Source of the DNA: Methanocalculus taiwanensis
GTDB taxonomy: Archaea > Halobacteriota > Methanomicrobia > Methanomicrobiales > Methanocorpusculaceae
Length of the DNA stretch: 43,886 nucleotides
Direction of reading: 5' to 3'
Assembly: GCF_024372745.1 (NCBI RefSeq)
Contig: NZ_VOTZ01000021.1
Coordinates: 1-43,886 of the forward strand
Made by a program: the position numbers and the translations under genes. Below the pieces are notes generated by a model. It did not search any database. It saw only the letters and a program-made list of their open reading frames with translations, and was not told the origin of the DNA. This document shows positions 6,055-16,706 of the stretch, one piece after another (position 1 is the stretch's first letter; each line of letters starts with the position of its first letter).

Positions 6055-6060
6055 TTAGTC

Positions 6061-6081
6061 CTATAAAATAGTATATATACT
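6061..6081 (+). promoter_or_regulatory. Box A (TATA) promoter of the glycogen operon
   Basis: The AT-rich run CTATAAAATAGTATATATAC (6061-6080) lies about 25-40 bp upstream of the first glycogen-operon ATG at 6103. This is the archaeal box A spacing for a transcript with a very short leader. No Shine-Dalgarno motif is seen before 6103, consistent with a near-leaderless message. Confidence 0.6.
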
Positions 6082-6102
6082 CAACTCTCCTTATCCCTCA
6101 TC

Positions 6103-7560
6103 ATGCCCGGTGATGTCTCAGGCGTTCCACAGGTCTGCATGAGCTTAGTCCTTCGACATCAGCAGCTTGTGGATTCCCCTCATGCCAGAAGAGTGGTGAA
6201 GAGAGGTGAAAAAGATCCTTCTCCATTCCCTTCCCAGGATGAAGAGAGACGGATCCGGCACCTTTCGGCCTCCTGCTATACACCGGCAACAGAATGCCTG
6301 ATCCGGATGATGGATGAAGGCTTCAGCTGTGGCCTGCTGTTATCCGGTGTCCTCCTTGAATGCCTGGAGGGATATGAGCCGGATCTCTATGATCTTATCC
6401 GTGAGGCAGCCACCCACAGGCATGCAGAACTCCTTACCGAATCGTACTTCTGCTCAGTTGTAGCTCTATTCGGGGAAGCTGAGGAGTATCAGCACCAGGT
6501 TGAGATGCACCAAAGAGCGATGGAGGATCTCTTCGGGCGAAGGCCTTCGGTCCTGGTTGCAACCGATTCGATATTCAACTGGACTGTGATCACAGCAGCA
6601 CGGAAGATGGGCATCTCCGCTGTCTATACCGATGTGTTTGGGAAAAATACTCCCTTAATAAATCCCCTGAAGAGCTACCAGGCAGGCGGTCTGCCAGTTT
6701 TCATCAGGCACTGCGAACTCTCCGATGATATTGCCCTTCGGTACGGGGAAGTGGACTGGGTACATCACCCTCTCTCTCCTGGCACCTATGCCGGCTGGCT
6801 CTCTGCAATCAGGGATGGCATCGCCCATGTTATGATCAATATGGAGGTTTTTGGCGGCCGTTTCCATCAGGAAACCGGTATATTGTCATTCCTTGAAGGC
6901 CTGCCCGCTGCATTCCATGATACTGGCGTCTGCAGTATCCTGCCTTCTGAGGCGGCCGTACAGGCCAGTTCACCTGATCAGATCCCGGATGAACTGATCG
7001 AAAGCGCATCGGCTGCATGGCCGGTGAATATGATGCAATGCACGGCTCTTGAGGCTCTCAAGGCAGCGGGACGGTGGGTTCCGGACAGAACAACCCTCCG
7101 GCGTTTCCAGGCACGGGATCACTTCTCGCAGATGGCAGCCACATCAGGATCATGCGGGATGCTGACAGATTACAGGACACAGTCAGATGCATACCAGTAC
7201 TTCTCTGATTATTTTGCGGCTCTTTGCAGGTTTGAGGGTGATCAGATCGGTTCTGTCAGGGCAAAGAGCGCAGCCCGAATTCTCCGCTGCATTCCCCCAA
7301 AACTTGCATTCCATTTCTGCACTCCTTATCACAGGGAGGGATTCTCTGCCCATTCACTGGAAGAGTTTGTCAAGCTTCTCAATGTGGCAACTGATGAATG
7401 CATTCTCCACCATTGCAAACGCCTGGATTTTGAACACTGGATACGGGATGTAATCAATGATCCAAAACTTGCTGACGAGATTCACCCCCTGACGGATCGT
7501 GAGGATATACAGAAAGCAGTTATAAAGAGGGTTCAGTTCTTATGGAATCGCTTAAAATAG
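6103..7560 (+). CDS. GH57-family protein with altered catalytic residues (predicted pseudoenzyme)
   Basis: A 485-aa protein aligning along its length with archaeal GH57 alpha-amylases: it keeps the LLTESYF, VEMHQRAMEDLFGRRPSV and CELSDDIALRY blocks. The catalytic positions differ. The nucleophile motif, usually R-N-T-E, reads A-T-D at residues 153-155. The acid/base motif, usually M-D-Y-E-T-F-G-E-H, reads I-N-M-E-V-F-G-G-R (245-253), so the Asp has become Asn and the following E-H is G-R. The N-terminal H-Q-P reads H-Q-Q. As first gene of the glycogen operon, overlapping the synthase gene by 19 bp, it may bind glucan or regulate rather than hydrolyse. Start ATG 6103 fits the TATA spacing. Confidence 0.8.
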   Translation: MPGDVSGVPQVCMSLVLRHQQLVDSPHARRVVKRGEKDPSPFPSQDEERRIRHLSASCYTPATECLIRMMDEGFSCGLLLSGVLLECLEGYEPDLYDLIREAATHRHAELLTESYFCSVVALFGEAEEYQHQVEMHQRAMEDLFGRRPSVLVATDSIFNWTVITAARKMGISAVYTDVFGKNTPLINPLKSYQAGGLPVFIRHCELSDDIALRYGEVDWVHHPLSPGTYAGWLSAIRDGIAHVMINMEVFGGRFHQETGILSFLEGLPAAFHDTGVCSILPSEAAVQASSPDQIPDELIESASAAWPVNMMQCTALEALKAAGRWVPDRTTLRRFQARDHFSQMAATSGSCGMLTDYRTQSDAYQYFSDYFAALCRFEGDQIGSVRAKSAARILRCIPPKLAFHFCTPYHREGFSAHSLEEFVKLLNVATDECILHHCKRLDFEHWIRDVINDPKLADEIHPLTDREDIQKAVIKRVQFLWNRLK

Positions 7561-8687
7561 CTTTTTTTGCCTGGGAATCCGTGTATACGGAGAAGGTTGG
7601 GGGGCTTGCTCCGGCTGCAACATACCTTGCCGAAGAGCTCGCTAAGACGCACGAGGTTCACTACTTTACAAGGGGTAAAGAGGATTTTACAAGGAATGGC
7701 GTACACTTCCACTGCCTCTCCCCTGAACAGACAGAAATCCTCTCTCTTTGCAATGAGATGAGCGAAGAGGCAATAGGCCGGTTTCACGAGTTTGACGACC
7801 CCCCCTTTGACCTGCTCCATTTCCATGACTGGCATTTTTACCTGGCACTTCGGCAGTTCCAGGATCGCGTAACTGTTCTCACGTTCCATTCAACAGAGTA
7901 TGGAAGAAATGGGGGTTATTATGGCGAATGGAAGGAATTTATTGAGATATCCGGGATCGAACGTTCGATGGCAGCCCTTGCCCGCGAGATCATAACCGTC
8001 TCAAAAGTGATGAAAGTGGAGCTGATGTGGCTCTATGATGTTCCTGATTGGAAGATATCTATCATCCCGAATGGAACAGATCCTTCTCTGTACATGCTGG
8101 ATGTCGCACCCGGGCTTATCAAGAAACGGTATGGAATTCATAAGCTTGCTCCTCTCGTCCTCTTTGTCGGCCGGATTGGATGGCAGAAAGGCCCTGACAT
8201 CCTGCTTGATGCAATCCCGCATGTGCTTGCCAGGAGGGAGGATGTGCGGTTCATCTTCGCAGGCAAAGGCGATATGCTGGCTGCCCTGCAGGAACGATCA
8301 CGTGGGCTTCCGGTACAATTCACCGGCTATGTCTCTGATATAGAGCATCTTGAACTCCTGAATGCAGCGGATCTGATCTGTATCCCGAGCAGAAACGAAC
8401 CCTTTGGTCTCGTGCTCACCGAGGCATGGAGTGCTGGCAAAGGAGTGGTTGCGTCTGATGTGGGCGGGCTCTCGATGAATATCGAGAACCTTGTCGACGG
8501 GATCAAGGTCCCCCCGGCACCCGAGCCGATTGCATGGGCGATCTGCTACTCACTCAACAACCCGGACTTCCTAACTTCAATGGGGATTGCCGGCAGGCAG
8601 AAGGTGCTGGATCAGTTTAACTGGAAGAAGGTTGCAGAGAAGCTCAATCATGTCTATGTGAAGGTGCTCAAGCCTCCACTCTGCTGA
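7542..8687 (+). CDS. Glycogen synthase-type glycosyltransferase (GT4-like)
   Basis: A 381-aa GT-B fold glycosyltransferase. The N-terminal domain has the acceptor loop KVGGLAPAATYLAEEL (residues 18-33). The C-terminal domain has FVGRIGWQKGPDILLDA and the donor-binding E-x7-E motif EPFGLVLTE (286-294). Such short archaeal enzymes extend alpha-1,4-glucan from a nucleotide-glucose donor. The context (branching enzyme, GH57, GH77 and phosphorylase downstream) supports glycogen synthesis rather than surface glycan assembly. The ATG lies within the end of the GH57 gene, suggesting coupling. Whether UDP- or ADP-glucose is used cannot be told. Confidence 0.85.
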   Translation: MESLKIAFFAWESVYTEKVGGLAPAATYLAEELAKTHEVHYFTRGKEDFTRNGVHFHCLSPEQTEILSLCNEMSEEAIGRFHEFDDPPFDLLHFHDWHFYLALRQFQDRVTVLTFHSTEYGRNGGYYGEWKEFIEISGIERSMAALAREIITVSKVMKVELMWLYDVPDWKISIIPNGTDPSLYMLDVAPGLIKKRYGIHKLAPLVLFVGRIGWQKGPDILLDAIPHVLARREDVRFIFAGKGDMLAALQERSRGLPVQFTGYVSDIEHLELLNAADLICIPSRNEPFGLVLTEAWSAGKGVVASDVGGLSMNIENLVDGIKVPPAPEPIAWAICYSLNNPDFLTSMGIAGRQKVLDQFNWKKVAEKLNHVYVKVLKPPLC

Positions 8688-8700
8688 TCCTGGGAGGACT

Positions 8701-10599
8701 ATGGTCATGGACGGGAGAAACCTGACCGATTATGATATCTACCTCTTTAAGGAGGGATCACATGCACGCATCTATGAGTGCCTCGGCTCTCACCCCTCAC
8801 AGGATGGGATGCACTTTGCCGTCTGGGCTCCAGAAGCCCGTAGTGTCTCAGTTGTAACAGATAAGAACAGCTGGATACCCGGGATTGATCCCCTTTTCCC
8901 TCGCTGGGACAGCTCGGGAATCTGGGAAGGTTCTGTTGATGAAATTGAGATCGGCTCGACCTACAAGTATGCAATAGAAACGCCCTCCGGGAACATGCTC
9001 TTCAAAGGCGATCCTTTCGCGTTCCAGTGGGAAGAGCCCCCAAAGACTGCTTCCAGGATCAACACCCTCTCCTATGTCTGGGGGGATCGGGCATGGATAG
9101 AGGAGCGCATCTCCGCAAATGCTCTTGATGCACCCCTCTCAATCTATGAACTCCATATTGGATCATGGCGGCGTGTTCCCGAAGAAGGTGGGCGGATGCC
9201 AGGGTACCGGGAGATTGCCCCTCTTCTTACTGACTATATCCATGAGATGGGTTTTACCCATGTCGAGTTCCTGCCGGTAATGGAGCATCCGTTCTATGGA
9301 TCGTGGGGATACCAGACAACCGGATACTTCGCGCCAACAGCCCGATATGGCCCACCCGAGGATCTGATGTACCTGATTGATATCCTTCACCAAAACAGAA
9401 TCGGCGTCATTCTGGACTGGGTGCCATCTCATTTCCCTTCGGATTCACATGCCCTTTCCCTCTTTGACGGGTCACACTGTTATGAACATGCCGACCCGAA
9501 ACAGGGTTTCCACCCGGAATGGAAGAGCTGCATCTTTAATTATGGCCGGAACGAGGTTCGCTCGTTCCTCCTCTCCAGTGCCGGATTCTGGCTTGACTGC
9601 TATCATGCGGATGGCCTGAGAGTGGATGGGGTTGCATCCATGCTCTACCTCGATTATGCCCGGCCTTCAGGCGAATGGGTGCCGAATACCTTTGGCGGAA
9701 AGGAGAATCTGGAGGCAATCCGGTTTCTGCGATCACTGAATGAGACGATCTATGCCGCGTTTCCTGATGTACAGGTGATCGCTGAGGAATCAACTGCATG
9801 GCCGATGGTCACCCGTCCAACCTTTGCAGGGGGGCTTGGGTTCGGCCTGAAATGGAATATGGGATGGATGCATGATACGCTTCAGTACATGAAGCGAGAT
9901 CCGATCCACCGGCGGCACCATCATGATAACCTGACATTCTCTATCATCTATGCATTCACTGAAAATTATCTGCTCCCGCTCTCGCATGATGAGGTGGTCT
10001 ATGGCAAGGGGTCGCTTATCAAAAAAATGCCCGGAGACTGGTGGCAGCAGTTTGCTAATCTCAGGCTTCTCTATGGGTATATGTATACGCACCCGGGTCG
10101 AAAGCTCCTTTTTATGGGAGGTGAATTTGCACAGTGGAGTGAATGGGATCATGAATCAAGCCTCGACTGGCACCTCCTCTCTGGTGAGATGCACAGGGGG
10201 GTCATGAAACTGGTGGCGGATCTGAACCATCTCTACAGGAGTGAACCCTCGCTTCATCGTGCTGATGACAGAAGCGAAGGATTCACATGGATCGATCACG
10301 GCGACTGGGAGCAGAGCGTGATTGCATATCTCAGGCGGGCCGATGGCGGATCTTTGGTTGCCTGTATCTGCAATTTTACACCTGTTCCCAGGTACGGATA
10401 CCGGATCGGCGTGCCTCAGGAGGGATTGTGGGATGAGGTGATCAACACTGATTCCGGCTGCTATGGTGGGAGCAACTGCGGGAATAACGGTTCTGTGATA
10501 GCAGAAGACTGGCCGTGGCATGGTTTTGCATACTCACTCTCCCTTACTCTTCCGCCACTTGGAGCCATAATCCTCAGGCAACAGAGAGGCAGATCATGA
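8701..10599 (+). CDS. glgB: 1,4-alpha-glucan branching enzyme
   Basis: A 632-aa GH13 branching enzyme that cuts alpha-1,4 chains and re-attaches them as alpha-1,6 branches. An N-terminal CBM48-like domain (HFAVWAPEARSVSVV) is followed by the catalytic barrel with ELHIGSWRR, nucleophile D309 (GLRVDGVASMLYLDY), acid/base E362 (VIAEESTAWP) and the third acid D430 (LPLSHDEVVYGKGS). All key residues are present. The ATG at 8701 is preceded by GGGAGG at ideal spacing. Its stop overlaps the start of the next gene as ATGA. Confidence 0.96.
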   Translation: MVMDGRNLTDYDIYLFKEGSHARIYECLGSHPSQDGMHFAVWAPEARSVSVVTDKNSWIPGIDPLFPRWDSSGIWEGSVDEIEIGSTYKYAIETPSGNMLFKGDPFAFQWEEPPKTASRINTLSYVWGDRAWIEERISANALDAPLSIYELHIGSWRRVPEEGGRMPGYREIAPLLTDYIHEMGFTHVEFLPVMEHPFYGSWGYQTTGYFAPTARYGPPEDLMYLIDILHQNRIGVILDWVPSHFPSDSHALSLFDGSHCYEHADPKQGFHPEWKSCIFNYGRNEVRSFLLSSAGFWLDCYHADGLRVDGVASMLYLDYARPSGEWVPNTFGGKENLEAIRFLRSLNETIYAAFPDVQVIAEESTAWPMVTRPTFAGGLGFGLKWNMGWMHDTLQYMKRDPIHRRHHHDNLTFSIIYAFTENYLLPLSHDEVVYGKGSLIKKMPGDWWQQFANLRLLYGYMYTHPGRKLLFMGGEFAQWSEWDHESSLDWHLLSGEMHRGVMKLVADLNHLYRSEPSLHRADDRSEGFTWIDHGDWEQSVIAYLRRADGGSLVACICNFTPVPRYGYRIGVPQEGLWDEVINTDSGCYGGSNCGNNGSVIAEDWPWHGFAYSLSLTLPPLGAIILRQQRGRS

Positions 10600-13001
10600 G
10601 CCACTTTGTCTGTATCCATGGACACTTCTATCAGCCCCCACGCGAGAACCCGTGGTTTGAGAAGATCGAGGTCCAGGATTCAGCGTATCCGTATCATGAC
10701 TGGAACGAGCGGATCACTGTTGAATGCTATGCCCCGAATTCCGCTGCAAGAATTCTCGATGAAGAAGGCCTGATCACGAGTATAGTGAACAATTATTCCA
10801 TGATCAGCTATAATGCAGGTCCCACACTCCTCTCATGGCTTGAGGATAATCACCCAAATACCTATCTTGCATTCATTGAAGCTGATCGAATTGGTTCGAA
10901 CCGTTTCAGGGGGCATGGCCCTGCAATCGCCCAGTGCTATAATCACATGATCATGCCGCTTGCAAACGAGCGCGATAAAAAAACCCAGGTCCGCTGGGGC
11001 ACAGAGGACTTCCTTGACCGGTTTGGAAGGGAGCCTGAAGGGATGTGGCTCCCTGAAATGGCGGTTGATATGGAGACGCTCCGTATCATGGCAGGAGAAG
11101 GCATCCGGTACGTGATCCTGGAGCCCCACCAGGTGGCCAGGGTGAGGGGACTGGACGGCATGTGGACCTCTCTTCCAGATGGATGGATCGATCCGAAGGT
11201 GCCTTACCGTGTGGATCTGGGTGAAGGGCAGGATATTGCGGTTTTCCTCAATGATGTTGGCATTGCCCATGAGGTGGCATTTGGCAACCTTCTTGTGGAC
11301 GGGCACTGGCTTTCGGCCCGTCTTGCCGGGTCATTTGACGGAAGGGAAGAGGATCAGCTCGTACACTTTGCAATTGACGGGGAGACCTATGGGCATCACT
11401 TCCGTTTCGGCGAGATGGCGCTTGCTTACTGCCTTTCACGGCTCAGGGAAGAGGGCGTACATCTGACAGTCTATGGCGAATACCTCTCACTGCATCCCCC
11501 TCTTCAGGAGATAGAGATAAAGGAGAATACCGCATGGAGCTGTCCGCATTCACTCTCCCGATGGAAAGGTGGATGCACCTGTTCAACGGGCGCCCATCCC
11601 GGCTGGTCATTTGAGTGGAGAATGTATCTCCGACGTGCATTCGATCTCCTCCGCGATCGTGCCTGCATCCATTATGAGCGTGTTGCATCCCCGCTCCTCC
11701 AGGATCCCTGGGTTGCGAGGAATGAATACATCAGTATCATCAATGACCGGAGCCCGAAGATGCGGGGGTATTTCCTTGAAAAACATGCTTCCCGCTCCCT
11801 GGATTGCGAAGAGCAGGTTCTTCTGCTCGAACTCCTTGAGATGCAACGAAACCTGATGCTGATGTATACCAGCTGCGGTTGGTTCTTTGATGATATCGCC
11901 GGAATAGAGGCGGTACAGGTGATGTGGTATGCGGCACGTGCACTTCAGCTCTATCGTTCAACAGGAGGTGACGATCCCAATGATGATCTCCAACAGATCC
12001 TTGCTGAAGCGAAATCGAATACCACCGGCTTTTCCGATGGTGTTTCGGTATGGCAAAGCCGTGTTCTTCCGCATGTAACGGATCTGAGAAAGGTGTGCGG
12101 CCAGTATGCACTCACGTCGCTCTTCTGCCCCTATCCCGATACAAGTATGCACGCAATCTACAGGGTAGATCGGTTTTTGGATTGCCAGGAGCAGGAAGAG
12201 CGGCGGCGTATTGCTGTCGGTGCAGCCAGAGTACAGTCACTCCTGACATGCGAATCAAAGGAATTCATCTATGCGGCAGCCTATCCCGGCGGCCCGAATC
12301 TTCTTGCAGGTGTTTTGCCATATAAGAGCGAGAAGGAGTTCTGCGAGATCCGCGATGCGGTATGTGCTGCCTGGCATGATCCGGCATCTTCATTCTATGA
12401 TGAGCTCACGCGCTGGTTTGGCGAGGGGTGTATCCGGGGGACAGATCTTCTCCGCGATGAAGCCCGCACAATAGTCAGTCTGATCTTAAAAAATAGTATC
12501 GGGAGGATTGAAGGTTCATTTCAGGATATCTACAGCCGCTATCTCCCGCTGATGGAGGCGATGCATATGCTGGAGATGCCAATTCCTCCCGCAATAGCAG
12601 TTCCGGTAGGGCATATTTTGAACCGCGATCTTATCGTAGCCCTTGAGAGCGATTTCCCTGATCCAGTGGAGATGTCCCGCATCTCCGATGCCATGCAACG
12701 TTTTGCAATCCCTCCTGAAAAGGAGAAGATATCCATGGTTGCTGGATCCCGCCTCTGTATTCTCCTTCAGGATCTCCTGGGCAGTCCCGGAGATGCCTCC
12801 ATTATGGCATCGATACTTGGCATTCTGAATGTCATTGTGTCCCTCTCCCTCTGCCCGTCTCTCTGGGAGGCTCAGAACGCTTTTATTCAATTGAGGGATG
12901 CATATATGCCGATACGGAATGGAAAACCAGGAGATCGCCGTTACCATTCGCTTCCCGAACAGATAGAGGATATCGGGCGGTTCCTCGGGGTGAAGATATG
13001 A
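10596..13001 (+). CDS. GH57 glycoside hydrolase with DUF3536 domain
   Basis: A protein of 801 aa with an N-terminal GH57 catalytic domain (FVCIHGHFYQPPRENPW at the start) and a long DUF3536-type C-terminal region. Unlike the first gene of the operon it keeps both catalytic residues: nucleophile E154 in GMWLPE and acid/base D261 in FAIDGETYGHH. It probably hydrolyses or transfers alpha-glucans, for example as amylase or debranching activity for glycogen turnover. The ATG at 10596 is chosen because it gives the conserved N-terminus and overlaps the glgB stop as ATGA; the frame is open further upstream (10515), but that part reads as glgB in another frame. Confidence 0.88.
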   Translation: MSHFVCIHGHFYQPPRENPWFEKIEVQDSAYPYHDWNERITVECYAPNSAARILDEEGLITSIVNNYSMISYNAGPTLLSWLEDNHPNTYLAFIEADRIGSNRFRGHGPAIAQCYNHMIMPLANERDKKTQVRWGTEDFLDRFGREPEGMWLPEMAVDMETLRIMAGEGIRYVILEPHQVARVRGLDGMWTSLPDGWIDPKVPYRVDLGEGQDIAVFLNDVGIAHEVAFGNLLVDGHWLSARLAGSFDGREEDQLVHFAIDGETYGHHFRFGEMALAYCLSRLREEGVHLTVYGEYLSLHPPLQEIEIKENTAWSCPHSLSRWKGGCTCSTGAHPGWSFEWRMYLRRAFDLLRDRACIHYERVASPLLQDPWVARNEYISIINDRSPKMRGYFLEKHASRSLDCEEQVLLLELLEMQRNLMLMYTSCGWFFDDIAGIEAVQVMWYAARALQLYRSTGGDDPNDDLQQILAEAKSNTTGFSDGVSVWQSRVLPHVTDLRKVCGQYALTSLFCPYPDTSMHAIYRVDRFLDCQEQEERRRIAVGAARVQSLLTCESKEFIYAAAYPGGPNLLAGVLPYKSEKEFCEIRDAVCAAWHDPASSFYDELTRWFGEGCIRGTDLLRDEARTIVSLILKNSIGRIEGSFQDIYSRYLPLMEAMHMLEMPIPPAIAVPVGHILNRDLIVALESDFPDPVEMSRISDAMQRFAIPPEKEKISMVAGSRLCILLQDLLGSPGDASIMASILGILNVIVSLSLCPSLWEAQNAFIQLRDAYMPIRNGKPGDRRYHSLPEQIEDIGRFLGVKI

Positions 13002-14488
13002 ACTCCCGCCGAAGAAGCGGAGTACTCCTTCCGGTATCTGCTCTCCCTTCCCCACATGGTATCGGTGACTTTGGCCCTGCTGCAACCGGCTTTATCGATC
13101 ACCTCAGGTGTGCCCGCATGGGGATCTGGCAGGTTCTTCCCCTGCACCCGGCTGGCCCCGATGGATCGCCATACTATGCGAACTCCTCATTTGCAGGAAA
13201 TCCGCTCCTGATCAGCCTTTCGGCTCTTGCGGATCAAGATCTGATATCCGGGGAAGAATGCAGATCTGCTGCACTTCCATCTGGCCAGGTCAGTTATGGA
13301 GAAGCAGGAAGAATCCGAAAGCTGCTCCTTGGCCGGGCAGTGGAACGGGTGCTCAGAGAAGGATACAGGGGAGACGTGGATGAATTCGCAGCCCGCAACA
13401 GTGAATGGTTATCTGATTATGCACTCTTTTCAATCCTGAAAGAACGCCACAATGACCTGCCCTGGAACCTGTGGGATCGCCCGTACCGGTTAAGGGACAT
13501 CTCCTCACTTAAGGAGGCAGAATGGAGGTATAGAGATAAAATACAGGAGATAGAGGTTATCCAGTGGCTATTTAACAGGCAATGGGATGCGCTTCGTTCT
13601 CATGCAGGATCAAATGGGATCCAACTTCTGGGAGATATGCCCATATACCCGACCCACGACAGTGCGGATGTATGGGCACATCAACACCTCTTCTGCCTGG
13701 ATGCGGATGGTACACCGATCGATGTTGCCGGTGTTCCTCCCGATTATTTCAGCAGAACCGGGCAGCGCTGGGGCAATCCCCTCTACCGCTGGGAAGAACA
13801 CCAGCAAGAGGGATTTTCCTGGTGGCTATCAAGGATTGGGCGGGCGCTCTCCCTCTACGATCTGGTGCGGATTGATCACTTCCGTGGGCTTTCGGCATAC
13901 TGGGCAATACCGAATGAGTACCGGACTGCTGCAGGTGGCCGCTGGATAGCTGCACCGGGAGAAGCGCTCATTGATGCCATCAGGAAGAGATTTGGGGGTG
14001 ACAATCTGATCGCTGAGGATCTGGGGGTGATCGATCAACCGGTTCGCACGCTGATGGAGAGGGCGCAGATACCGGGCATGCGGGTTCTCCTCTTTGCTTT
14101 TGGCGGAGACACGGACAATCCCCATCTCCCTTTTAATCATCCTGAGAATGCGGTTGTCTATACCGGCACCCATGATAACCCTCCGGTGAAAGGCTGGTTT
14201 ATTGATGAGGCGACTGTGGCTGAGCGTTCATACCTCAAACGCTATGCAGGCAGGGATATTGGAAAAGATGAGGTATCAGATCTCTTTATAAGGCTCGCAT
14301 TCTCGTCAGTTGCCAGATACGCGATCATTCCCGTACAGGATCTCCTCAACCTCGGATCGGAGGCACGCATGAACCGTCCCGGAACACAAACCGGCAACTG
14401 GCTCTGGCGTCTTCATAGCGACTGGCCTGCTGAAGAGGTCCAAATACGCCTGCGCCAGTATGCTGAAACTTATGGCCGTGTGGAATGA
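12998..14488 (+). CDS. malQ: 4-alpha-glucanotransferase (amylomaltase, GH77)
   Basis: A 496-aa GH77 disproportionating enzyme. The N-terminus shows the family block GVLLPVSALPSPHGIGDFG followed by YYANSSFAGNPLLISL. Catalytic residues are nucleophile D293 (VRIDHFRGL), acid/base E340 (IAEDLGVI) and D393 (YTGTHDN). It shuffles maltodextrins between chains, feeding phosphorylase with longer substrates. It overlaps the GH57 gene by 4 bp (ATGA) and has the normal length of single-domain bacterial MalQ. A roughly 50-bp gap separates it from the phosphorylase. Confidence 0.96.
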   Translation: MNSRRRSGVLLPVSALPSPHGIGDFGPAATGFIDHLRCARMGIWQVLPLHPAGPDGSPYYANSSFAGNPLLISLSALADQDLISGEECRSAALPSGQVSYGEAGRIRKLLLGRAVERVLREGYRGDVDEFAARNSEWLSDYALFSILKERHNDLPWNLWDRPYRLRDISSLKEAEWRYRDKIQEIEVIQWLFNRQWDALRSHAGSNGIQLLGDMPIYPTHDSADVWAHQHLFCLDADGTPIDVAGVPPDYFSRTGQRWGNPLYRWEEHQQEGFSWWLSRIGRALSLYDLVRIDHFRGLSAYWAIPNEYRTAAGGRWIAAPGEALIDAIRKRFGGDNLIAEDLGVIDQPVRTLMERAQIPGMRVLLFAFGGDTDNPHLPFNHPENAVVYTGTHDNPPVKGWFIDEATVAERSYLKRYAGRDIGKDEVSDLFIRLAFSSVARYAIIPVQDLLNLGSEARMNRPGTQTGNWLWRLHSDWPAEEVQIRLRQYAETYGRVE

Positions 14489-14537: not shown

Positions 14538-16706
14538 ATGACCCATGGTGAATTGACAGGTGAGCGGCTCTTCACTCTTCCGGATCGAATTTCCGGCCTG
14601 GGGGAACTTGCCTATAATCTCTGGTGGAGCTGGCATCCCGAGGCCAGAATGCTCTTTAAACAGCTGAATCGGGAGGCATGGCGTGAAAGCGTGCATAATC
14701 CCGTCCGGATGCTTCGGGAGATTCCATACAGGTATCTTGAAGCCGCAAGTAAAAATCCCAGGTATCTTCGTGAATATGATATTATCATGGCCAGGCTTGG
14801 CTCTTATATGCGCCAGAGTCAGGGCTGGTTTGGGGAACATTACCAGAAAGGCCCGTTCAATGTCGCATACTTCTCAGCCGAGTACGGGCTACACCATTCG
14901 CTTCCCTTTTATGCCGGTGGACTGGGTTTTCTCGCAGGCGATCACCTGAAGGAGTGTTCTGACCTTAATGTGCCGGTTGTCGGGATTGGGTTTATGTACT
15001 CACAGGGATACCTCCATCAGCATATCCGGGTTGATGGATGGCAGGAGGAGATTACCCTCCCAACAAACCGCGATCTCGCACCGATCAAGCGTGTGCGGGA
15101 TGAAAACGGGAGGCACCTGATTGTTAAGGTGCCTGACATCGATCCGGCGATCTATGTTGCCGTATGGCGAGTCGATGTCGGGAGGGTTCCGCTCTATCTT
15201 CTTGACACCGATATATCAAAGAATGATCCAAAGAGACGCAGTATCTCCTCACACCTCTATACAGGTGACAGGGAGATGCGGCTCTTACAGCAGATTGTTC
15301 TTGGCATTGGCGGACGCCATGTTCTCAGGATGCTTGGAATTAACTTTTCAGGAATCCATCTGAATGAGGGGCACTCTGCGTTTGCTCTTCTCGAACTTGC
15401 ACGTGAACATGTAGAAGAGGGCATACCTGTGCACGAAGCCTTTGAAAAAATCCGCGGGCTCACTATCTTCACCACCCATACGCCTGTTCCGGCAGGACAT
15501 GATATCTACGATCCTGTGCTGGTTGAACGTCATCTGGGCCACTACATTGAGGCGCTTGGTATCACGCGGGAGGAGTTCCTGGCGCTGGGCAGGCACCCGG
15601 TTCGTTCGAATGAGGGTTTTAACATGACTGCCCTTGCACTCCGGCTCTCCAGGTTCCATAATGCAGTTTCACGGCGGCATGCCGGGGTGACACGGGAAAT
15701 GTGGAGATCCTGCTGGCCGGATCGGAATGATGACGAGATACCCATTGACGCAATCACAAACGGGGTTCATCTTCCAACCTGGCTCAACCCCAGGATGGAG
15801 ATGCTCCTAAACGGCTATTTCACCCGGATATGCCCTCACTGGCAGCATGAACATGATAACAGGGAGATATGGGAGGTTGTCGATGAGATCCCCGATCGTG
15901 AACTATGGGAGCTGCATATGCGGCTGAAAATAAAACTCTTCAACAGGATACGAGAATATAAACGGAGAAAATGGGCGCAGGGGGTAGAGGAACCTGAGAA
16001 CCTTGTGGCTGAAGGGATGCTCCTTAACCCGAGTGTTCTCACAATCGGGTTTGCCCGCCGCTTTTCGACCTATAAAAGGGCTGATCTCCTCCTTCATGAT
16101 CTATCCCGCCTTTCCAGCATCCTGAATAATCCCTGGTATCCTGTCCAGATCGTATTTGCCGGAAAAGCGCATCCGGATGATAAAGAGGGGAAGAAGATCC
16201 TGCAGAGGATCTATCAGCTTGCTGAAAAACCTGAAATAGCCGGGAGGATTGCCGTCATCGAAAATTATGGCGAGCAGATTGCACAATATATGGTACATGG
16301 CGTTGATCTCTGGCTGAACACCCCAGTCCCACCGATGGAAGCTTCAGGAACGAGCGGAATGAAGGCGGCAATGAATGGGGTGCTGCACTGCAGTATCCTG
16401 GATGGATGGTGGTGTGAAGGGTATAACGGCAGAAATGGCTGGGTGTTCGGAGCAGGCGAGATAAAGGGGGATCGCACCGTACAGGATGCAGAAGAACTCT
16501 ACCGGCTTATTGAGAGCGATATAGCGCCGCTTTATTATACGCAGTCCATGGATGGCATACCTCATGGATGGGTTGCGATGATGAAGGAGTCAATGAAGAC
16601 TATACCCCCGCTCTTTTCAGCACGCCGGATGGTGAAAGAATATGTCCATAATTATTACCCGCTGATGGTGGCATGTGCAGAGAAGAATCTCTGTAATATT
16701 CGCTGA
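14538..16706 (+). CDS. glgP: Alpha-glucan (glycogen) phosphorylase, GT35
   Basis: A 722-aa GT35 phosphorylase releasing glucose-1-phosphate from glycogen ends. The opening (LGELAYNLWWSWHPEARMLF) marks the short archaeal/bacterial type of phosphorylase rather than the 800-plus-residue classical type. Further landmarks are SAEYGLHHSLPFYAGGLG, HLNEGHSAFALLEL, TTHTPVPAGHD and the pyridoxal phosphate site EASGTSGMKAAMNG with K609. It is last in the glycogen operon; a short T run follows at 16767. The start ATG 14538 has AAGG shortly upstream (GAAGGCTG). Confidence 0.95.
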   Translation: MTHGELTGERLFTLPDRISGLGELAYNLWWSWHPEARMLFKQLNREAWRESVHNPVRMLREIPYRYLEAASKNPRYLREYDIIMARLGSYMRQSQGWFGEHYQKGPFNVAYFSAEYGLHHSLPFYAGGLGFLAGDHLKECSDLNVPVVGIGFMYSQGYLHQHIRVDGWQEEITLPTNRDLAPIKRVRDENGRHLIVKVPDIDPAIYVAVWRVDVGRVPLYLLDTDISKNDPKRRSISSHLYTGDREMRLLQQIVLGIGGRHVLRMLGINFSGIHLNEGHSAFALLELAREHVEEGIPVHEAFEKIRGLTIFTTHTPVPAGHDIYDPVLVERHLGHYIEALGITREEFLALGRHPVRSNEGFNMTALALRLSRFHNAVSRRHAGVTREMWRSCWPDRNDDEIPIDAITNGVHLPTWLNPRMEMLLNGYFTRICPHWQHEHDNREIWEVVDEIPDRELWELHMRLKIKLFNRIREYKRRKWAQGVEEPENLVAEGMLLNPSVLTIGFARRFSTYKRADLLLHDLSRLSSILNNPWYPVQIVFAGKAHPDDKEGKKILQRIYQLAEKPEIAGRIAVIENYGEQIAQYMVHGVDLWLNTPVPPMEASGTSGMKAAMNGVLHCSILDGWWCEGYNGRNGWVFGAGEIKGDRTVQDAEELYRLIESDIAPLYYTQSMDGIPHGWVAMMKESMKTIPPLFSARRMVKEYVHNYYPLMVACAEKNLCNIR

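Follow-up and report, generated by a model that had tools for sequence, protein, structure and literature searches.

Members of family GH57 that belong to the alpha-amylase branch and lack catalytic residues form an already published class, the alpha-amylase-like (AAMY-like) proteins (Janecek & Blesak 2011; PMC6037648), for which the latter article gives 126 sequences, 60 of them archaeal, some retaining both catalytic residues. A catalytic GH57 enzyme is defined there by a Glu nucleophile in conserved sequence region (CSR) 3 and an Asp proton donor in CSR-4, and a GH57 alpha-amylase by Glu or Gln at the first position of CSR-1 and a CSR-5 ending in Tyr-Tyr (PMC6037648). The sole characterised alpha-amylase in the same article is the GH57 enzyme of Methanocaldococcus jannaschii, which is catalytic, as the protein studied here very probably is not, and which, having the same motifs, presumably serves as the functional reference for the intact homologues termed type A below. 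Like the AAMY-like proteins as described, the protein studied here has the GH57 fold, belongs to the alpha-amylase branch and lacks catalytic residues (one or both in that class). To that description the present analysis adds the link to GlgB, the C-terminal module and the order of losses; the main text of PMC6037648 makes no mention of a glycosyltransferase or of Methanoculleus. Three of the results below were not met with in the literature searched and seem to be new: the operon rule, the sequence of the losses and the constraint shift.

Two further strands of earlier work bear on the locus. In Methanoculleus bourgensis, a GT4 encoded between glgB and a GH57 gene was suggested to be an uncharacterised glycogen synthase (PMC11046441), and a 2024 review posed the question of an unrecognised archaeal glycogen branching enzyme; a literature search on glycogen in Methanocalculus gave nothing useful. 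A possible analogue is plant ISA2, a noncatalytic glucan-enzyme paralog held in the polymer-shaping ISA1/ISA2 complex (PMC12510319), although ISA2 is a eukaryotic GH13 protein whose partner is its own paralog ISA1, so that the likeness would be one of role, not of family.

Organization of the locus

The window, meaning the whole stretch of 43,886 nucleotides of Methanocalculus taiwanensis DNA that was analysed, contains the following features.

6060..6085, + strand: TATA-like, A/T-rich stretch cctataaaatagtatatatact, which may be the unit's archaeal promoter (by eye)
6103..7560, + strand: opening gene of the unit, for a 485-aa GH57 protein that is very probably an alpha-amylase-like pseudoenzyme (ORF call, Pfam, predicted fold)
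6142..6177, + strand: eroded CSR-1 region, SLVLRHQQLVDS replacing GFEVHQPFRLNR (alignment)
6430..6459, + strand: eroded CSR-2 region, LLTESYFCSV replacing ILGQTYYHSI (alignment)
6565..6567, + strand: nucleophile column, Asp155, codon GAT (alignment, codon check)
6838..6840, + strand: acid/base column, Asn246, codon AAT (alignment, codon check)
6856..6861, + strand: GEH motif, Glu-His replaced by Gly252-Arg253 (alignment, codon check)
7108..7134, + strand: eroded CSR-5 region, QARDHFSQM replacing QTSDHFYYM (alignment)
7258..7557, + strand: DUF5752/OrfY-like module at the C terminus (residues 386-485), candidate for docking (profile, Pfam, fold, conservation)
7542..7560, + strand: stretch of 19 nt shared by the pseudoenzyme and GT4 genes (equal offset in most loci, in both operon types)
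7542..8687, + strand: GT4 glycosyltransferase, presumed glucan synthase (profile matches)
8701..10599, + strand: GlgB, GH13 branching enzyme (profile matches)
10596..13001, + strand: GH57-DUF3536 protein, catalytic motifs intact (Pfam, motif check)
12998..14488, + strand: MalQ, GH77 4-alpha-glucanotransferase (profile matches)
14538..16706, + strand: alpha-glucan phosphorylase (profile matches)

The first gene is a single open frame with an ATG start and zero internal stops, as the sequence-only reading had it when describing a gene without frameshift, and its product matches Pfam GH57 (PF03065) over residues 19-287 (E 1.8e-37; 129.7 bits against a cut-off of 21.2). That reading also placed an intact GH57 in the same operon, which is found in the DUF3536 protein with its LPE (E181) and IDGETYGHH (D288) motifs. 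The start of the DUF3536 gene, which the ORF tool sets at a GTG (10515), is probably instead the ATG at 10596, which overlaps the glgB stop. A third GH57-profile match of the genome (C6:90541-90924, loci L003 and L026), lying downstream of an aminotransferase-like gene, was discounted as a possible backup amylase, as it has none of the alpha-amylase motifs by eye.

Erosion of the active site

At the positions that define a catalytic GH57 enzyme, the window protein has Asp155 and Asn246. The three substitutions pointed out from the sequence alone hold at the residue level: the nucleophile Glu is Asp (A153-T154-D155, also at the codon level), the acid/base Asp is Asn (N246, codon AAT) and the Glu-His of the GEH motif is G252-R253. 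The CSR-4 register is secured by a gap-free alignment of LDYETFGEH with INMEVFGGR in the window protein. For the nucleophile, a profile made mostly of intact homologues places their N-T-E column on the L-T-E-R-V-W of the Thermococcus litoralis 4-alpha-glucanotransferase (1k1w), the Glu of which we take to be the TLGT nucleophile E123; a PDB search with the single sequence gave no match, and the matches came via the profile search. Across the sequence alignment, no intact Glu/Asp pair was found elsewhere in the protein.

Erosion extends well beyond these residues. Alignment with intact homologues shows EVHQP changed to VLRHQ in CSR-1, GQTYYH to TESYFC in CSR-2 and the CSR-5 tyrosines YY to SQ, so that the first position of CSR-1 and the end of CSR-5 (...FSQ) both depart from the GH57 alpha-amylase pattern; the WADxEKDxSAW loop, conserved across the intact homologues, is gone. 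The fold itself appears retained: the AlphaFold model (pLDDT 91) has a predicted GH57-type (beta/alpha)7 barrel, and its best Foldseek matches in the PDB are GH57 enzymes (1k1x, E 2.8e-10, TM about 0.5). The earlier statement that the rest of the fold blocks are kept thus stands for the fold and fails for the sequence fingerprints of CSR-1, CSR-2, CSR-5 and the SAW loop. In the catalytic sense, the window protein is very probably a pseudoenzyme. The least robust part of the reported damage is N246, this Asn being private to one assembly while all four other Methanocalculus species with the gene have Asp.

Distribution and history of the losses

A homologue is present in 115 of the 232 genomes of the order. 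Motifs and neighbours were scored at loci from most of these 115 genomes (119 loci, reduced to 118 by exclusion of L206 as too partial). Intact homologues account for 65 of the 118, none with an adjacent GlgB, and eroded homologues with GlgB in the operon for 48, every GlgB-adjacent homologue being eroded; this 48-to-65 split must not be counted as 113 independent observations, since the GlgB rule is close to N = 1. The remaining five (5/118) are eroded with no GlgB visible: L088 and L092 belong to the eroded clade and lie on contigs that end too early to show GlgB, and L058, L065 and L091 are eroded second copies in genomes that also hold an intact one. Wherever contig or stretch length suffices, the order of the GlgB-type operon is GH57-GT4-GlgB-GH57/DUF3536-MalQ.

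At the genome level, GlgB above the curated cut-off occurs in 55 of the 232 genomes. It coexists with an intact copy in three genomes of genus g14, where GlgB is on another contig, and in G214, which has both the intact and the eroded kind. Within Methanocalculus, three of eight genomes are without the pseudoenzyme, GlgB and a close GT4. The C-terminal domain of GH57 branching enzymes (PF09210) was found in 0 of the 232 genomes, which rules out a GH57-type branching enzyme as a replacement. Another pairing of an enzyme with a possible pseudoenzyme is seen in families f8 and f30 (L150-L153), where two GH57 genes without the C-terminal module stand in tandem, one intact and the other motif-changed (e.g., LNYTSLCFHQ).

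In a tree whose outgroups are other families of the phylum, and which covers these homologues without the characterised GH57 enzymes, the GlgB-linked group (type B) is a single clade (support 100/99) nested among intact proteins that carry the alpha-amylase motifs EVHQP, DYETFGEH and YY, type A and type B being separated by one deep split. Because the eroded clade arose once, the GlgB association amounts to approximately one event plus three minor ones. The active site is eroded throughout the 21 sampled type B proteins, and the whole clade is without the CSR-4 Glu-His, the SAW loop and the CSR-5 tyrosines. Scored as Glu or not Glu, the nucleophile column requires five changes over the tree. 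The type B clade has long branches, and the position of some of its members is uncertain. Asp is common at this column within the clade, and other members have Gly or Trp. Both Glu and Asp are kept in L030, L060 and L084, and in L030, also from Methanocalculus, Glu-His and CSR-1 are lost as elsewhere. The simplest history would begin with a single early loss, of Glu-His, the loop and the tyrosines, after which the nucleophile drifted repeatedly; on such a history, even members in which Glu and Asp persist are probably inactive.

Selection and the shift of constraint

Compared with its two nearest species (dS 0.35-0.37), the window gene has an omega of about 0.2 overall and of 0.15-0.4 in each of four regions, so it is not a neutral pseudogene and is under purifying selection. 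In the same comparison, omega is 0.085-0.10 for GT4, roughly half that of the pseudoenzyme, 0.08-0.10 for GlgB, 0.14 for the DUF3536 protein and 0.175 for MalQ. This omega, the clade-wide erosion and the five nucleophile changes support the earlier proposal of a selected pseudoenzyme.

Constraint has moved from the barrel to the C-terminal module. With 18 intact sequences set against 18 eroded ones, mean column identity drops from 0.56 in type A to 0.39 in type B over residues 50-386 (barrel and helices) and rises from 0.42 to 0.48 over residues 387-485, the module (permutation p 5e-5, a generous value in that columns are taken as exchangeable). A safer statement comes from sliding windows, in which the largest relative gain coincides with the module, the best 99-residue windows beginning at 372-378.

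The C-terminal module

Fifty-one of 54 homologues match DUF5752 (PF19027) at a permissive E <= 5, with a best value of 1.2e-8; the window protein alone scores 12.3 bits (E 0.11), below the cut-off of 23. A literature search found no paper on DUF5752. By profile, the module resembles OrfY of Thermoproteus tenax (PDB 4cso; E 4.3e-5), to which it also has a weak fold likeness (prob 0.99, TM 0.52, E 0.12). OrfY differs in having two stretches of the DUF5752-like module and no GH57 barrel. Conserved positions of the module in the window protein include H437, D442 and W446. The module recurs in L154-L156, three genomes from a different family of the phylum, at the C terminus of a different protein (hhalign 99.1%, E 9.6e-19), encoded 0.3-0.4 kb upstream of a related GT4 on the same strand. 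The three frames that bear it there (basis: Pfam/profile) are as follows.

L154:5882-7333: nucleotidyl-transferase, NDP-sugar pyrophosphorylase type (Pfam)
L156:2796-4181: nucleotidyl-transferase, NDP-sugar pyrophosphorylase type (Pfam)
L155:6920-8434: module carried by a comparable frame in the corresponding position

Since two unlike proteins carry the module beside related GT4s, it may bind the synthase; its distribution suggests that the C-terminal module docks the GT4.

Association with the presumed GT4 synthase

In the window, the end of the pseudoenzyme gene and the beginning of the GT4 gene share exactly 19 nt, as is the case at most loci of both types, A and B. The gene had been described as overlapping glycogen synthase: the overlap is real, and the identity of the synthase is presumptive, as the GT4 falls below every curated GlgA cut-off. 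It is nevertheless the only candidate synthase found, because no GT3 or GT5 synthase scores above cut-off in the genome, and its assignment as the probable synthase agrees with the suggestion made for M. bourgensis (PMC11046441). Between L030 and the window, silent sites diverge strongly across the pseudoenzyme and GT4 genes and the first GlgB block (6103-9060) and less on both sides. This suggests, for a single case, a joint exchange of pseudoenzyme, GT4 and the beginning of glgB as one block.

The association is not strict. Many genomes of the order have a second, unpaired GT4 without a module partner (e.g., L159-L165), 51-54% identical to the window GT4. In L157 (genome G099), a deleted and frame-broken GH57 remnant at 1-850, made up of scattered frames with the overlapping C-terminal end still readable, precedes an intact GT4-GlgB-DUF3536 series, and in L158 (genome G111) the GH57 gene is absent with GT4-GlgB-DUF3536 present. 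The pseudoenzyme is therefore not obligatory and can be lost; these two loci and the unpaired GT4 copies rule out a GT4 that always needs the module.

Interpretation

The reading that we favour, giving it an even chance, is that the pseudoenzyme was retired from catalysis after the arrival of GlgB and kept as a GT4-associated subunit. By alignment and tree, the type B clade descends from intact GH57 proteins encoded just upstream of the same GT4. GlgB would have taken over the glucan-acting step, making GH57 catalysis dispensable, and the protein would have been retained because it serves the overlapping GT4 in a structural or regulatory way, attached to it by the DUF5752/OrfY-like C-terminal module and affecting GT4 stability, localisation or activity. 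Displacement by GlgB may or may not have caused the catalytic loss, the odds being balanced, and the chances are likewise level that a GT4 partnership is the reason the protein was kept. Homologues are intact without GlgB and eroded with it, and PF09210 is absent from the order, as one would expect had GlgB taken over the function. A scaffolding or regulatory role, proposed in the sequence-only reading, is favoured by the constraint shift, the shared module and the conserved overlap, with binding to the GT4 itself presumptive and the losses in L157 and L158 speaking against it. A precedent is the TPSP of T. tenax, which is activated by its GT partner (PMC3634074).

Other readings account for parts of these data. 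The gene could be a relic on its way out, its frame kept mainly for translational coupling of GT4 at the 19-nt overlap and its protein mattering little. The L157 remnant, the absence in L158, the long branches with repeated nucleophile change and the strictness of the overlap would all fit; however, omega is low in all four regions, the C-terminal module gained in relative conservation, and coupling alone would not keep 485 residues across many genera, which makes a relic unlikely. Less likely still is a glucan-binding lectin, in which the eroded cleft would hold glycogen or a primer and deliver it uncleaved to the synthase: the retained fold of the predicted model and the glucan pathway neighbourhood agree with it, but the CSR-1 His, the CSR-2 Tyr-His, the CSR-5 Tyr-Tyr and the SAW loop are lost as well, and the barrel is the very region that lost constraint. 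Glucan binding had been among the roles proposed for the protein; in the cleft it is not supported, since the CSR residues just named, presumably part of the substrate site, are gone together with the loop; glucan might be bound at surface sites outside the cleft.

Continued catalysis, in which Asp155, a carboxylate, would work with a different acid, for instance Glu248, and specificity might have changed, is a more remote prospect than either. In its favour, Asp is common at the nucleophile column in the clade and L030, L060 and L084 retain Glu and Asp; against it stand the Gly or Trp found at that column in other members, the joint erosion of CSR-1, -2, -4 and -5, and the Asn at the acid/base position of the window protein. 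A bolder extension of the favoured GT4-subunit reading, rather doubtful at present, would make the intact GH57 encoded before GT4 in GlgB-less methanogens an unrecognised branching enzyme of archaeal glycogen; the window protein would be the form left over once GlgB had replaced that enzyme, serving today as a non-catalytic subunit docked to GT4 via the module shared with the NDP-sugar pyrophosphorylase.

Because active-site erosion tracks GlgB across the order, the question of which enzyme branches archaeal glycogen becomes testable, and the pattern names the protein pairs for assay. The C-terminal module, for its part, is a concrete candidate for the means by which such proteins are attached to the synthase.
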